Positions 3,923-21,575 of a DNA stretch of 46,479 bases are shown here, piece after piece. The notes under the pieces were generated by a model. That model had not been told where the DNA came from and made no database searches. It was given only the letters and a program-made list of their open reading frames with translations. This stretch comes from Lachnospiraceae bacterium. GTDB taxonomy: Bacteria > Bacillota > Clostridia > Lachnospirales > Lachnospiraceae. A program made the translations under genes and the position numbers. How positions within the stretch are numbered: the stretch's first letter is position 1; every line of letters starts with the position of its first letter. The stretch spans positions 1-46,479 of the forward strand of contig JAFZSQ010000015.1 in NCBI GenBank assembly GCA_017619295.1. Reading direction: 5' to 3'.

Positions 3923-4648
3923 TTATAACTGACTGAAAATCTCACCGATGGCGCCTGTCACCACAAGGTCTGCCTGCCTGTCTCTGGGGGTGGGAGTTTT
4001 ATTTATCAAAACCAGCTTATCTCCCTCGTAGTAATCAATGAGGCCGGCTGCAGGATATACAGCAAGAGAAGTTCCGCCTACGATAAGCATATCCGCATTG
4101 CTGATGAATCTGATGGAATCCATCATGGTTTTCTGGTCGAGACCCTCTTCATAAAGTACGACATCGGGCTTTATGGGACCACCGCACTTGTCACATTTAG
4201 GAATTCCCTCAGAATTTTTAATGTATGTTGCATCGAAGAATGCACCGCAGTTTTCACAGTAATTTCTGTGAACTGAGCCGTGAAGTTCGCAAACGGTTTT
4301 GCTTCCGGCTGCCTGATGGAGACCGTCGATATTCTGGGTAATTACTGCTTTGAGTTTACCTTGCTTCTCCCACTCCGCCAGCTTCAGATGAGCGGCATTC
4401 GGTTTTACCTCTAAAAAAAGCATCTTGTCTTTGTAAAAACGATAGAACTCATCAGTCTTTCTTCTGTAGAAGGTGTGACTCAAAATGGTTTCCGGAGGGT
4501 AGTCATACTTCTGGTTATAGAGACCGTCCACGCTTCGAAAGTCCGGAACCCCTGATTCGGTAGAAACGCCTGCTCCTCCGAAAAACACAATGTTGTTACT
4601 TTCCTCAACCCATTTTTTCAATGTAGCAATATCGTCGATTAATGCCAT
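3923..4648 (-). CDS. Sirtuin NAD-dependent protein deacylase (CobB/NpdA type)
   Basis: This cytosolic enzyme removes acyl groups from lysine side chains, consuming NAD and giving nicotinamide and O-acyl-ADP-ribose. The 241-residue protein shows the NAD loop GGAGVSTESGVPDFRS near residue 24, TQNIDGLH, catalytic His in ELHGS, four zinc cysteines as CENC and CDKC, and GTSLAVYPAAGL for NAD binding. All key residues are present, so it should be active. AAGGAGGGG precedes the ATG. It may reverse acetylation by acetyl-phosphate or acetyl-CoA, abundant in PFL-using fermenters; this last point is inference. Confidence 0.92.
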   Translation of the reverse strand: MALIDDIATLKKWVEESNNIVFFGGAGVSTESGVPDFRSVDGLYNQKYDYPPETILSHTFYRRKTDEFYRFYKDKMLFLEVKPNAAHLKLAEWEKQGKLKAVITQNIDGLHQAAGSKTVCELHGSVHRNYCENCGAFFDATYIKNSEGIPKCDKCGGPIKPDVVLYEEGLDQKTMMDSIRFISNADMLIVGGTSLAVYPAAGLIDYYEGDKLVLINKTPTPRDRQADLVVTGAIGEIFSQL

Positions 4649-4667
4649 AGTACCCCTCCTTTTGATA

Positions 4668-4699
4668 ACAAAAACCCCGGTGTAAAAAACACCGGAGTT
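4668..4699 (-). terminator. Terminator after the DUF1858 gene
   Basis: Read on the minus strand, AACTCCGGTGT pairs with ACACCGGGGTT (plus-strand arms 4673-4683 and 4689-4699) and is followed by a T run (plus-strand A4670-A4674). It separates the DUF1858 gene from the sirtuin gene. Confidence 0.8.
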
Positions 4700-4715
4700 A
4701 TTCTGTTAGGTTAAA

Positions 4716-4910
4716 TTATTGAATTGCGTCAATCTGCTGCATAAGGACATCAATGTCCATTCCATGAACCATGGCAGCCTCTTCAATTGATTCGCCCTGG
4801 GAGGCAGGACAACCGAGACAATGCATACCCATATCCATAAGAACGGGCGCGATGTCGGGATTAATCATTAATGCCTCGCCGATTAACGTATCTTTGGTAA
4901 TCTTAGCCAT
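4716..4910 (-). CDS. DUF1858 domain protein
   Basis: The 64-residue protein is a single DUF1858 domain: MAKITKDTLIGEAL, then MGMHCLGCPASQGESIEEAA with a CxxC in the usual place, and a C-terminal helix. The domain occurs alone or fused to hybrid-cluster and other redox proteins in anaerobes; its biochemical role is not settled. AAAGGA lies upstream. It is divergent from the PFL locus, sharing a 224-bp promoter region, which may mean shared response to redox state. Confidence 0.85.
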   Translation of the reverse strand: MAKITKDTLIGEALMINPDIAPVLMDMGMHCLGCPASQGESIEEAAMVHGMDIDVLMQQIDAIQ

Positions 4911-4960
4911 TTCTAAAATCCTTTCACGTATTACACGACTGTTACATTTGAATCCCCTAT

Positions 4961-4990
4961 AGTATAATACCGAAGCCTTGAAATATGCAA
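4961..4990 (-). promoter_or_regulatory. Candidate promoter of the DUF1858 gene
   Basis: On the minus strand TTGCAT (plus 4985-4990) is followed after 18 nt by TATACT (plus 4961-4966). Confidence 0.5.
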
Positions 4991-5022
4991 GTTTTGTACA
5001 TAAAAAAGTACATCTCCTTGCC

Positions 5023-5051
5023 TTGACTGAAATTCTCTATAATCATATAAT
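5023..5051 (+). promoter_or_regulatory. Strong promoter of the PFL locus
   Basis: TTGACT (5023-5028), a 17-nt spacer and a perfect TATAAT (5046-5051). Just upstream is the inverted repeat TGTAC (4995-4999)/GTACA (5008-5012), a possible operator. The 5' untranslated region carries a small hairpin TGCGA (5069-5073)/TCGCA (5081-5085). Confidence 0.75.
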
Positions 5052-5134
5052 GATAGTTACGAGATTGGTGCGATTTTCGGTCGCATACACATATTGTTTT
5101 TTATTATTTCAAAGTATGAATAGGAGGTTTACAA

Positions 5135-7171
5135 ATGAGACCTGAATGGACAGATTTTGTAACAGGTAAGTGGGACAGAGAAGTCAACGTTCGTGATTTC
5201 ATCCAGAAGAACTATCATCCTTATGATGGTGATGAGTCATTCCTCGCTGGCCCTACACAGAACACAAAAGACTTATGGGACATGGTGCTTGACTGCATGA
5301 AGAGAGAGCGTGAGGCAGGCGGTGTACTTGATATGGACACCAAGGTTGTTTCTACAATCACTTCTCACGGCCCCGGATATCTTGATAAGAGCAAGGAGAC
5401 TATCGTTGGTTTCCAGACAGATAAGCCTTTCAAGAGATCATTACAGCCCTACGGTGGTATCCGTATGGCAGAGAAAGCTTGCTCTGATAACGGCTACGAA
5501 GTAGATCCTGAGATCAGTGAGTTCTTCTCAACACATCGTAAAACACACAACGCAGGTTGTTTCGATGCTTACACACCTGAGATGAGAGCTTGCCGTACAA
5601 GCCACATTATCACAGGTCTTCCTGATGCTTACGGACGTGGACGTATCATCGGTGACTACAGAAGAGTTGCTCTTTACGGTATCGACAGACTTATCGAGGA
5701 TAAAGAGGACCAGAAGGCTTCTACAAGCAAGATCATGACAGACGATGTTATCCGTCTTCGTGAAGAGATTTCTGAGCAGATCGTTGCTCTTAAGATGATG
5801 AAAGAGATGGCTGCTTCCTATGGCTGCGATATTTCTAAGCCCGCTGCAAACGTACAGGAAGCTATCCAGTGGACATACTTCGGATACCTTTGCTCAGTTA
5901 AGGAGCAGAACGGTGCTGCTATGTCACTTGGCCGTACATCTACTTTCCTTGATTGCTACGCTGAGAGAGACCTTAAGAACGGTACTTTCACAGAGGAGCA
6001 GATTCAGGAGTTCGTTGACCACTTCATCATGAAGTTACGTTGCGTACGTTTCGCTCGTACTCCTGAGTACAACCAGATTTTCGCAGGCGATCCCGTATGG
6101 GTAACCGAGTCACTCGGTGGTGTTGGTGTTGACGGACGTCACATGGTAACAAAGATGAGCTTCCGTTACCTCCACACTCTTGAGAACCTTGGTGCTTCAC
6201 CCGAGCCTAACCTTACAGTTCTTTGGTCTACAAGACTTCCTGAAGGTTGGAAGAAGTACTGCGCTAAGATCTCCATTACAACATCTTCTATTCAGTACGA
6301 GAACGATGACCTCATGAGAGTTACACACGGTGATGACTACGGTATCGCATGTTGCGTATCTTCAATGGTTATCGGTAAGGAAATGCAGTTCTTCGGAGCT
6401 CGTGCTAACCTTGCTAAGTGCTTACTTTACGCTCTTAACGGTGGTATCGACGAGAAGACCAAGAAGCAGGTTGGTCCTAAGTACCGTCCTGTAGTTGGTG
6501 ACGTTCTTGATTACGATGACGTTATGGACAAGTTCATGGATATGATGGAGTGGCAGGCTGAGGTTTACGTTAACACCCTCAACATCATCCACTACATGCA
6601 TGATAAGTACTGCTACGAGAGAGCAGAGATGGCTCTTCACGATAAGAACGTTAAGAGATACTTCGCAACAGGTGTTGCAGGTCTTTCAATCGTTGCTGAC
6701 TCACTTTCAGCTATCAAGTTTGCTAAGGTTGAAGTTATCCGTGACGAAGATGGTATCATCACAGACTTCAAGACAACCGGTGAGTTCCCTAAATATGGTA
6801 ACGATGATGACCGTGTAGATGATATCGCTCGTGATATCGTTCACAAGTTCATGACAGCTGTAAGAAGACACCACACCTACAGAGAAGGTGTTCCTACAAC
6901 TTCAATCCTTACAATTACATCTAACGTTACTTACGGTAAGGCAACAGGTAACACACCTGATGGACGTAAGGCTGGACAGCCCTTTGCTCCCGGTGCTAAC
7001 CCTATGCACGGCCGTGATACTCATGGTGCAGTTGCATCCCTTTCATCGGTTGCTAAGCTTCCCTTCAACGATGCACAGGATGGTATCTCAAATACCTTCA
7101 CAATTATCCCCGGTGCTCTTGGTAAGGAAGATAAGATCTTCGCAGGCGACCTTGAGATGGACTTAAAGTAA
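5135..7171 (+). CDS. pflB: Pyruvate formate-lyase catalytic subunit lacking the glycyl radical domain
   Basis: PFL converts pyruvate and CoA to acetyl-CoA and formate by radical chemistry in anaerobic cytosol. The 678-residue protein covers the ten-stranded barrel, including the catalytic Cys406-Cys407 pair in [10 protein letters not shown], and [17 protein letters not shown] near the end. E. coli PflB is 760 residues and carries its radical glycine in a C-terminal domain. Here the reading frame stops at [17 protein letters not shown], exactly before that domain. The missing domain is encoded at 7438-7680. The ATG has a perfect AGGAGG 7 nt upstream. Codon use is strongly biased, as expected for an abundant protein. 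The activase is at 20558. Confidence 0.95.
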
Positions 7172-7202
7172 TTAACCCGACTTCGTAGAGGAGGTGGCCT
7201 GT

Positions 7203-7412
7203 ATGGACGAAAAGGCAATGATTGACGATTTAGTTAAAATGCTTGACGGTGGAATGGCTAAAGGCGTCGGACACATCAATGTGGATACCGAAGAGACCAA
7301 AGAACCTGAATCTCCCGTAGCCGTTCAGACCATGGGTTGTACAGATTGTTCAAGAACTCCCTTAGCGTGCAGTGTTCCCACACTGCACCAGGGGATTGAC
7401 GATTATCAATAA
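7203..7412 (+). CDS. Small protein resembling the start of the glycyl radical domain, with Cys tail
   Basis: The 69-residue protein lies between the two PFL pieces. The ATG at 7203 is chosen because AGGAGG (7189-7194) sits 8 nt upstream; an in-frame GTG at 7194 overlaps that site. Residues 10-27 (LVKMLDGGMAKGVGHINV) match residues 11-28 of the downstream radical protein ([18 protein letters not shown]). After that, similarity ends. Instead of the radical loop there is a linker and a tail with Cys46, Cys49 and Cys56 (GCTDCSRTPLACSVPTLHQG). It cannot carry a glycyl radical. A role in assembly, docking or redox protection of split PFL is inference. Confidence 0.8.
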   Translation: MDEKAMIDDLVKMLDGGMAKGVGHINVDTEETKEPESPVAVQTMGCTDCSRTPLACSVPTLHQGIDDYQ

Positions 7413-7437
7413 TAGAAAATGAAAGGAGACAAACATT

Positions 7438-7680
7438 ATGGCAGCAAGTACAGCACAGGTTTCCAACCTTGTTAATTTACTTGATGGTTACGTTGTAAAA
7501 GGCGGCCATCACCTTAATGTTAACGTATTAAACAGAGATACATTATTAGATGCACAGAAGAACCCTGAGAAATATCCTCAGCTCACAATCCGTGTTTCCG
7601 GATACGCTGTTAACTTCATCAAGTTAACACCCGAGCAGCAGGCAGACGTTATTTCCAGAACATTCCACGAGGCAATCTAA
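7438..7680 (+). CDS. Stand-alone glycyl radical subunit of pyruvate formate-lyase (GrcA/YfiD-like)
   Basis: The 80-residue protein is the complete C-terminal domain of [33 protein letters not shown], then the radical loop RVSGYAVNF with Gly55, ending in [14 protein letters not shown]. In E. coli the free protein GrcA (YfiD) has this domain as a spare part for oxygen-damaged PFL. Here it is the only copy at the locus and must complete the truncated catalytic subunit. The strong AAGGAG and separate ATG show independent translation. Gly55 would be activated by the radical-SAM activase at 20558. A terminator follows. Confidence 0.93.
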
Positions 7681-7695
7681 TCGCAGAATGATTTC

Positions 7696-7728
7696 AAGGA
7701 CCCAAGCATTTCGCTTGGGTCCTTTTTT
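7696..7728 (+). terminator. Terminator of the PFL operon
   Basis: A 12-bp perfect stem AAGGACCCAAGC (7696-7707) with GCTTGGGTCCTT (7713-7724), 5-nt loop, followed by TTTT. Confidence 0.93.
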
Positions 7729-20557: not shown

Positions 20558-21316
20558 ATGGAAGGAAGAATTCATTCTTTAGAGAGCTTCGGCACAGTTG
20601 ACGGACCCGGCGTAAGATACGTGGTTTTCTTACAGGGATGCCCCATGAGATGCCTTTACTGTCATAACCCGGATACCTGGTCAATGACAGCGGGAACCCC
20701 AATGGACTCATCATATATAATTGAGCAGTATGAGAGAAATAAGAGTTTTTACAATGGAGGCGGAATTACAGTCACCGGCGGCGAACCCCTTATGCAGATA
20801 GATTTCCTTTTGGACCTTTTCACAAAGGCAAAGGAGAAGGATATCCATACCTGCCTCGACACATCGGGAATCGCATACAACCCTAACAATACTGCGTATA
20901 ATGAGAAACTGGAAAGACTCTTAAAGATGACCAATCTCGTTATGCTTGACATTAAGCATATCGATCCGGAAAAACACAAGGTTCTCTGCAGCCAGCCAAA
21001 CGAAGGAATCCTGGCATTTTTGGAACTCCTTGATAAGAGAGGCGTTGATACCTGGATTAGACACGTGGTTGTGCCCGGATACAGTGATGATGAGAAGGAC
21101 CTTTACAACCTTGGCCATCACATCGGTCAGTACAGCTGCATTAAGGCTTTGGATGTTCTGCCCTATCATACTATGGGTGTGGTAAAATACGAGAATCTCG
21201 GCATCGACTATCCTTTAAAGGGTGTGAAAGCCATGGATCCCGGAAGAGCAATCGAGCTTAAAAAGATTATCATCAAGGGCATCAAAGACAGACGCGCCGA
21301 AGATGGAATAAAATAA
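20558..21316 (+). CDS. pflA: Pyruvate formate-lyase activating enzyme (radical SAM)
   Basis: This radical-SAM enzyme abstracts hydrogen from the glycine of PFL to make the glycyl radical. The 252-residue protein begins GRIHSLESFGTVDGPGVRYV and has the CxxxCxxC cluster motif in CPMRCLYCHNP near residues 28-38, then VTGGEPLMQ and HVVVPGYSDD, all typical of PflA. It is unlinked to the split PFL at 5.1-7.7 kb, so its substrate there must be the small Gly55 protein rather than a fused domain. AAGGAG precedes the ATG. Confidence 0.95.
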   Translation: MEGRIHSLESFGTVDGPGVRYVVFLQGCPMRCLYCHNPDTWSMTAGTPMDSSYIIEQYERNKSFYNGGGITVTGGEPLMQIDFLLDLFTKAKEKDIHTCLDTSGIAYNPNNTAYNEKLERLLKMTNLVMLDIKHIDPEKHKVLCSQPNEGILAFLELLDKRGVDTWIRHVVVPGYSDDEKDLYNLGHHIGQYSCIKALDVLPYHTMGVVKYENLGIDYPLKGVKAMDPGRAIELKKIIIKGIKDRRAEDGIK

Positions 21317-21404: not shown

Positions 21405-21575
21405 ATGGCATTTGTTATTAACGATACTTGTATTGCTTGTGGCGCATGTGCTAATCAGTGCCCTGTTGGCGCTATCAGCGAGGCTGACGGTAAGATGGTA
21501 ATCGATGAGGCTACCTGCATCAGCTGTGGTTCTTGCGCAGGACAGTGCCCCGTAGGAGCAATTGAGGAAGCTTAA
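21405..21575 (+). CDS. Two-cluster [4Fe-4S] ferredoxin
   Basis: The 56-residue protein is a clostridial-type ferredoxin with two CxxCxxCxxxCP motifs: CIACGACANQCP at residues 9-20 and CISCGSCAGQCP at 38-49. It carries low-potential electrons between enzymes such as pyruvate:ferredoxin oxidoreductase, hydrogenase and Rnf, none of which is in this window. The AGGAGG site, its own consensus promoter and its own terminator mark it as a single, probably highly expressed gene. It lies directly after pflA. Confidence 0.97.
   Translation: MAFVINDTCIACGACANQCPVGAISEADGKMVIDEATCISCGSCAGQCPVGAIEEA

Follow-up and report, generated by a model that had tools for sequence, protein, structure and literature searches.

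What becomes of a pyruvate formate-lyase (PFL) when its glycyl radical domain is no longer part of the catalytic chain? The question is raised by a locus of a Lachnospiraceae bacterium (GenBank assembly GCA_017619295.1, contig JAFZSQ010000015.1), of which we analysed a stretch of 46,479 nucleotides, here called the window. A preliminary description of the locus proposed that PFL is divided into a catalytic protein and a free radical protein, and that this is a lasting arrangement and not a product of gene decay. Our results bear out the division and also show that the gap between the two genes holds a conserved third gene, which that description had overlooked. We refer to the catalytic subunit as CAT, to the third protein as MID and to the glycyl radical subunit as GRC. 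Other loci and genomes are cited by our working numbers (L and G).

The 678 residues of CAT match the model of formate C-acetyltransferase 1, TIGR01255, with 1096.3 bits (cut-off 994.2) over positions 2-665 of 744, and residues 4-669 align with positions 10-681 of E. coli PflB. The chain contains neither a radical domain nor a cysteine tail. The remainder of the enzyme is found in GRC, a GrcA3-like protein of 80 amino acids and no cysteines, whose residues 8-79 align with PflB 682-758, so that the division at PflB 681/682 is seamless. The pair Cys406-Cys407 of CAT, in the context GIACCVSS, is intact as described before and, judging from the family, probably corresponds to C418/C419 of E. coli. 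GRC covers positions 50-106 of the 106 positions of the Pfam family Gly_radical, and its radical glycine, Gly55, is invariant in 19 aligned sequences. It scores 153.7 bits against NF038360 (cut-off 158), for which the second copy in the same genome reaches 159.1 bits, and to judge by these scores, just below and just above the cut-off, it probably belongs with the family that NCBI models as 'autonomous glycyl radical cofactor GrcA3'. Ribosome-binding motifs lie directly upstream of both CAT and GRC, in agreement with the preliminary description. Its statement that both genes have highly biased codons holds for CAT, where 108 of 155 codons from five two-fold pairs end in C, but not for GRC (12/19); the corresponding figures are 6/12 in MID, 28/58 in pflA and 62/86 in an unrelated gene of the window.

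A search of the genome with PF02901 (95.8% complete, 99 contigs) found a single PFL-like open reading frame (ORF), the split one, and thus no intact PFL that GRC could rescue. The same split is present in another genome of the genus (L037), is common in the family and occurs in several families, so that it is not peculiar to this genome. The median ratio of nonsynonymous to synonymous substitution rates (dN/dS) is 0.041 for CAT (228 pairs), 0.093 for MID (132 pairs) and 0.060 for GRC (226 pairs); 250 random pairs were drawn per gene and saturated pairs dropped, so that the value for MID rests on less diverged pairs. MID is under purifying selection. Assembly error and gene decay are rejected in view of the conserved split in relatives and the purifying selection on the parts.

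A tree of 92 catalytic domains places 62 split and 7 unsplit enzymes in one clade (Shimodaira-Hasegawa-like approximate likelihood ratio test, SH-aLRT, 99), to which the 23 canonical full-length PFLs do not belong. Three changes of the split state are required on this tree, most simply one split followed by two re-fusions. Constraining the split enzymes to a single clade is rejected (approximately unbiased, AU, test, p 0.007), while placing six of the re-fused enzymes with the canonical PFLs is weakly rejected (p 0.04). A larger tree of 122 rows shows a fourth change, although it includes the long-branched L284 and this may be an artefact. Left out of the trees were L182 (the same locus as L215), L283 (CAT cut), L299 (no CAT in the stretch) and loci whose catalytic ORF was too short; each set of identical sequences was used once. 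Since no other PFL was found, both halves are conserved and some lineages have re-fused them, we consider it very probable that CAT and GRC form an obligate split, heteromeric PFL. The permanent partnership of two proteins proposed earlier thus stands as far as the split is conserved and looks functional, but the two are nearly always accompanied by a further small protein or, in its place, by a cysteine tail on CAT.

This third protein, MID, resembles the radical domain only at its beginning. Over its first third to half, MID shows homology with the beginning of that domain (hhalign with the N-terminal half of GrcA, 33 columns: P 95.9, E 5.8e-9), after which the sequence diverges into the cysteine-rich tail VQTMGCTDCSRTPLACSVPTLHQGIDDYQ and lacks the glycine loop. 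All 17 aligned MID members touch NF038360 weakly (best E 9.7e-5), and this is the sole convincing link to Pfam or NCBIfam, where MID has no family of its own; one or two members also gave weak matches, for example to DUF6174 (E 0.0009) and LipS2 (E 0.057). Among PDB chains the MID profile found nothing better than E 0.5. A ribosome-binding motif of at least four bases precedes MID in 75 of 80 loci and GRC in all 80. Small cysteine-containing partner subunits are known from other glycyl radical enzymes, 4-hydroxyphenylacetate decarboxylase and benzylsuccinate synthase; in those enzymes they hold Fe-S clusters by a larger number of ligands, and the radical domain is intact. MID matches no known subunit of this kind, and a conserved set of four ligands is not present: the cysteine elements, MID or tail, have 2-4 cysteines with variable spacing. 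Twelve supposed second MID copies (L247-L253, L258, L261, L263-L265) turned out to be a different small family. Its members, of 60-100 residues, have a MID-like N-terminal half and other cysteine tails, HHGRCDVGSPWAKGTVSNCDA or CCHMYGRPASETVALLDMYTD, and lie in unrelated loci (for example L263 5948-6205 and L252 5740-5961); the two that we tested match no Pfam or NCBIfam family.

The scan of genome contigs for MID confirmed at least 391 of 590 candidate stretches, and the best 80 of them were analysed as named loci. As these were selected by MID, they show the company that MID keeps. A free radical gene was parsed in all 80, and a split catalytic gene, whole or as its end at contig ends, adjoins MID in 79. 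The complete order CAT-MID-GRC-pflA-ferredoxin is present in 51 and an activase gene of some kind in 67; loci without the full order reflect contig ends, another arrangement or genes missed by our search patterns. Of 397 genomes of the family, 338 have a TIGR01255 match and 135 a match to the MID profile at E <=0.001, with at least 50 bits in 99 among the matches listed; the weaker matches are mostly the N-terminal half of GrcA itself or other small ORFs. Matches of at least 50 bits occur in four families of the order, and two families of the class beyond the order have MID as well, with 68 bits in the first and with 44 and 48 bits in the second. Split catalytic genes without MID are present in further families of the class. 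One of the loci, L061, is that of Lachnospiraceae bacterium G11. In L274 MID is placed after GRC. MID is found elsewhere on the same contig in genome G307 (operon copy L262), where the order is CAT-pflA-GRC, and in genome G003 (L242) it lies among other genes on a different contig from CAT. Linkage alone therefore does not explain the retention of MID. The ferredoxin does not serve as a marker of split operons only, since one is also present within the 1.5 kb flank of L184 and L193, both unsplit, and of L200, which is re-fused. A locus labelled Candidatus Gastranaerophilales (L064, JAMPHU010000053.1) carries a Lachnospiraceae-type operon and groups beside the window; it is probably a mislabelled or mixed metagenome-assembled genome.

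With few exceptions, split enzymes have either MID or a cysteine tail on the catalytic protein, and never both. Where the MID gene is missing, the split catalytic protein in most cases bears a cysteine tail of its own, such as DCSNGACSTPTLFEGLDNQ or DCACCEP. In a first set of 62 split enzymes, none of the 30 with MID had tail cysteines, while of the 32 without an adjacent MID 29 had at least two, one had a single cysteine and two had none. In the enlarged set of 92 split enzymes there are 52 with MID, 36 with a cysteine tail, none with both and 4 with neither nearby. Some of these rows were chosen because they have MID and others because they have a free radical gene but no MID, and of the 30 rows added, 19 are loci picked for MID within the family, so that 52:36:4 is no population frequency. 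L243 was scored as MID-bearing by hand, as its MID sits inside a longer ORF. A C-terminal cysteine pair is thus carried by the catalytic protein in 36 of the 40 enzymes of the larger set without an adjacent MID, while the cysteines of the window sit on MID. The enlarged set contains 10 independent pairs that differ in MID, across well-supported branches; the tail switches as expected in an average of 8.6 of these pairs and in the opposite way in none (sign test, median p 0.004). One tail at least can be recognised as that of MID: the MID profile detects the CAT tail of genome G117 (L207) with E 5e-5, and in the tree L207 is the sister of L210, whose MID gene ends in nearly the same motif. Among 30 unsplit PFLs, linker cysteines are found in one, the natural fusion L200 (CAT-TCGCEEVTC-GRC); the six other re-fused PFLs have no such cysteines. 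The cysteines nearly always number at least two, their spacing is variable and mostly 0-7, and the element has an acidic C-terminus and is situated between the catalytic and the radical parts. The commonest class of catalytic-protein tail is C-x4-C, for example CSNGAC, with 10 of the 32 tree-set rows without adjacent MID, and it is included in 6 of 9 extra loci outside the order. It seems probable that MID, or the tail in its place, is a part of the split PFL.

What could the cysteine pair do? The E. coli ribonucleotide reductase R1 subunit also ends in C-x4-C (CESGACKI). R1 is a thiyl-radical enzyme that shares its barrel fold with PFL, and its C-terminal tail re-reduces the disulfide of the active site and is in turn reduced by thioredoxin or glutaredoxin. 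The resemblance lies in the C-terminal C-x4-C of the catalytic-protein tails, whereas the dithiol of split PFLs is often found on a separate protein and its spacing varies. Titles in the reference list of PMC12288474, the portion of that source used here, name Cys419 and sulfinyl radicals in the inactivation of PFL by oxygen, which makes the active-site cysteines plausible targets. On account of the cysteine pair, the C-x4-C class, the acidic C-terminus, the position between the parts, the R1 ending and these plausible targets, we favour a reductase arm like that of R1. A repair role of the MID or tail dithiol toward the active-site cysteines is nonetheless a tentative proposal.

The radical subunit itself may be replaceable. 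The preliminary description had suggested that damage by oxygen could be repaired by swapping this subunit, and the idea receives some support from the second free radical gene of the source genome (L036 5061-5306, G000:C35), which is divergent from a gene for superoxide reductase (desulfoferrodoxin). Beyond the superoxide reductase, in the region L036 2912-5306, follow genes for rubrerythrin and a CRP-type regulator, and the same layout is found in genome G001 of the same genus. In genome G215 a second grcA lies beside rubrerythrin and, by eye, thioredoxin. As a universal oxygen-defence gene the second GrcA fails, since in 7 of the 10 second copies no match to rubrerythrin or superoxide reductase was found beside it. 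Six second copies (L051, L255, L256, L257, L259 and L260) adjoin one kind of gene, SpoIIIAA-like by eye and with no obvious link to PFL, and the one in L254 lies beside neither an oxygen-defence nor a SpoIIIAA-like gene.

These observations can be combined into the following mechanism. CAT would be unable to work alone, and GRC would dock at the place that the fused radical domain occupies in PflB. PflA would install the radical on the glycine of GRC, from where it would pass to Cys407/Cys406. When GRC is absent or destroyed, the radical-domain-like N-terminal half of MID might fill the empty radical site as a placeholder, and its flexible cysteine tail might reach the exposed active-site cysteines and re-reduce or protect them, in the manner of the dithiol tail of R1. 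A fresh radical subunit would then displace MID and be activated, and spares would be supplied by the second radical-subunit gene in the oxygen-defence cluster. The best explanation of the whole, at a little less than even chances, appears to us to be an obligate PFL of several subunits, in which the radical subunit can be replaced and a mobile dithiol re-reduces or protects the cysteines of the active site. A bolder idea, that split PFLs carry a self-repair kit made of an R1-like swinging dithiol, on their own tail or on a radical-domain mimic, and a replaceable radical subunit, is more speculative; we know of no such kit in any other glycyl radical enzyme.

Work on E. coli provides a precedent for the first part of this mechanism. 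GrcA, also called YfiD, supports formate production in vivo by a PflB without the radical glycine, according to the available part of PMC12338860, and the accessible portion of PMC8683613 reports that YfiD restores PFL cut by oxygen and that, after activation, a truncated PFL combined with YfiD reaches the activity of the wild type.

Several results weigh against our interpretation. In the same portion of PMC8683613, E. coli PFL cut at residue 695 bound YfiD hardly or not detectably and was poorly activated, a caution against assuming that docking is easy, although GRC brings the segment 682-695, to which nothing in YfiD could be matched. In the smaller set of 62, with only 4 independent pairs, the exchange of MID and tail was not significant. 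Independent origins common to the cysteine element and the separate radical subunit are few (3 pairs, not significant). The four enzymes with neither element, L039 (with MID elsewhere in the genome), L220, L239 (one cysteine) and L284, and in addition L283, whose CAT ends at the contig end and which lies outside the 92 and likewise has no MID or cysteine pair, imply that the dithiol is not indispensable everywhere. The likeness to R1 is a short motif that could be convergent, and many tails (CACC, CC, CxxC) do not have it. Finally, oxygen-defence neighbours are present at only 3 of the 10 second copies examined (L036, L038 and L246), from two genera.

Other explanations have to be weighed against the same evidence. 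MID could be an assembly adaptor or placeholder that occupies the site of the radical domain and hands over GRC or PflA, with cysteines that bind a metal or serve dimerisation and do no redox work. That its N-terminal half copies the first half of the radical domain fits such a function, and in the available part of PMC8683613 PflB residues 696-733, whose start MID overlaps by alignment, are critical for the binding of YfiD. A metal site, however, would fix the spacing and the number of its ligands, while here the spacing is variable and many elements have just two cysteines, and the tails of CAT are entirely without a docking half. We regard the adaptor as unlikely, if a serious alternative. 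Somewhat less likely still is that MID or the tail acts as a built-in quencher, its thiols neutralising the glycyl or thiyl radical by hydrogen-atom donation as oxygen rises, so that the polypeptide is switched off and spared from cleavage. The anatomy, with a cysteine pair between catalytic and radical parts, suits a quencher equally, and the six re-fused PFLs without the pair would fit a safety device that is needed only with a separate radical subunit. But an exchangeable radical subunit has less need of quenching, a single cysteine would suffice where at least two are nearly always kept, and the re-fused L200 retains its cysteines. A last alternative is that GRC serves only as a spare, as the NCBI family name 'autonomous glycyl radical cofactor' might suggest, and that CAT stems from a damaged PFL gene or from misassembly; this is highly improbable given that the genome search found no second PFL-like gene, that independent assemblies share the split within the genus and across families, and that dN/dS is 0.04-0.09.

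How does the repairable split PFL that we favour compare with known systems? With E. coli PflB it shares the catalytic domain, the adjacent cysteine pair, the RVSGYAV motif and a PflA-type activase; PflB is one chain where two or three are found here, and the E. coli linker has no cysteine pair. With GrcA/YfiD and GrcA3 it shares a small free-standing glycyl radical protein. YfiD, however, serves an intact PflB as a spare, and its first 60 or so residues are disordered (PMC8683613, in the portion available), whereas GRC is the only radical domain of its PFL and has the segment 682-695 instead. Two entries of the PDB, 38la and 38lb, are named 'Formate acetyltransferase' and contain chains without a radical domain, with best matches 76% and 74% identical to split enzymes over about 205 N-terminal residues. 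The 38lb chain continues beyond the split with ECDMCEMKELDD. Placed by this identity and not by a tree, both look like members of the split clade; no GrcA3-like chain was matched in either entry. Another split glycyl radical enzyme, of the PFL2/glycerol dehydratase group, is encoded on the minus strand of L043 (G016:C118), by genes at 4329-4580 and 4622-6958. Its catalytic protein follows the TIGR01774 profile to position 708 of 786 and has a second tandem copy, and its free radical protein of 84 residues covers positions 710-786 with LVRVAGYSAYF. The boundary of the split is the same, without a cysteine tail, and ABC-transporter-like genes are adjacent (by eye).

In the literature we found no description of a split PFL, of GrcA3 or of MID, in a search that left subscription journals mostly outside; the accessible portions of papers dealing with Roseburia and with short-chain fatty acids in the gut treat pfl without mention of a split. 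The GrcA3 model at NCBI and the two radical-domain-less catalytic chains in the PDB were already known. Apparently new are the family of MID proteins, the replacement of MID by a cysteine tail and vice versa, and the location of a spare radical subunit among oxygen-defence genes.

The features of the window are listed in the table. Three terminator-like sites were found against a shuffle mean of 2.2, and the one that closes the operon is the only one on the plus strand. The gene pflA, 13 kb downstream of the operon, is the sole TIGR02493 match above the cut-off (231.75). Just upstream of the operon, divergent on the minus strand at 3923-4910, lie genes for a Sir2 deacetylase and a small DUF1858 protein with CxxC.

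Table. Features of the split PFL and its activase in the window.
Feature	Position	Strand	Basis or remark
Promoter-like site TTGACT-17-TATAAT before the operon	5023..5051	+	11/12 consensus; weak, 4 sites in the region against a shuffle mean of 5.8
CAT, catalytic PFL subunit	5135..7171	+	TIGR01255 and PflB alignment
Active-site Cys406-Cys407	6350..6355	+	only CC pair of CAT
MID, third component, 69 aa	7203..7412	+	GrcA-like N-terminal part, then VQTMGCTDCSRTPLACSVPTLHQGIDDYQ; AGGAGG upstream
Three MID cysteines (residues 46, 49, 56)	7338..7370	+	invariant, 80 loci plus window aligned
GRC, glycyl radical subunit	7438..7680	+	Gly_radical, NF038360, PflB 682-758
Radical glycine Gly55	7600..7602	+	RVSGYAV
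Intrinsic terminator closing the CAT-MID-GRC operon	7696..7724	+	12-bp stem, T run
pflA, PFL activating enzyme (radical SAM)	20558..21316	+	TIGR02493, 291 bits; Pfam Radical_SAM
2x[4Fe-4S] ferredoxin, 56 aa, after pflA	21405..21575	+	last gene of the relatives' five-gene order

Many anaerobes of the gut and rumen rely on PFL as a main route to formate and acetyl-CoA, although oxygen destroys the radical of the enzyme. It appears that an entire lineage has moved this vulnerable part to a protein of its own and has added a dithiol module. If our interpretation is true, it would help to explain how strict anaerobes survive brief exposure to oxygen, and it would give a job to a family of small proteins that is found in many genera and for which neither Pfam nor NCBIfam has a separate model. 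It would also provide a natural, repairable PFL for engineering, and a link between PFL and ribonucleotide reductase that is directly testable.

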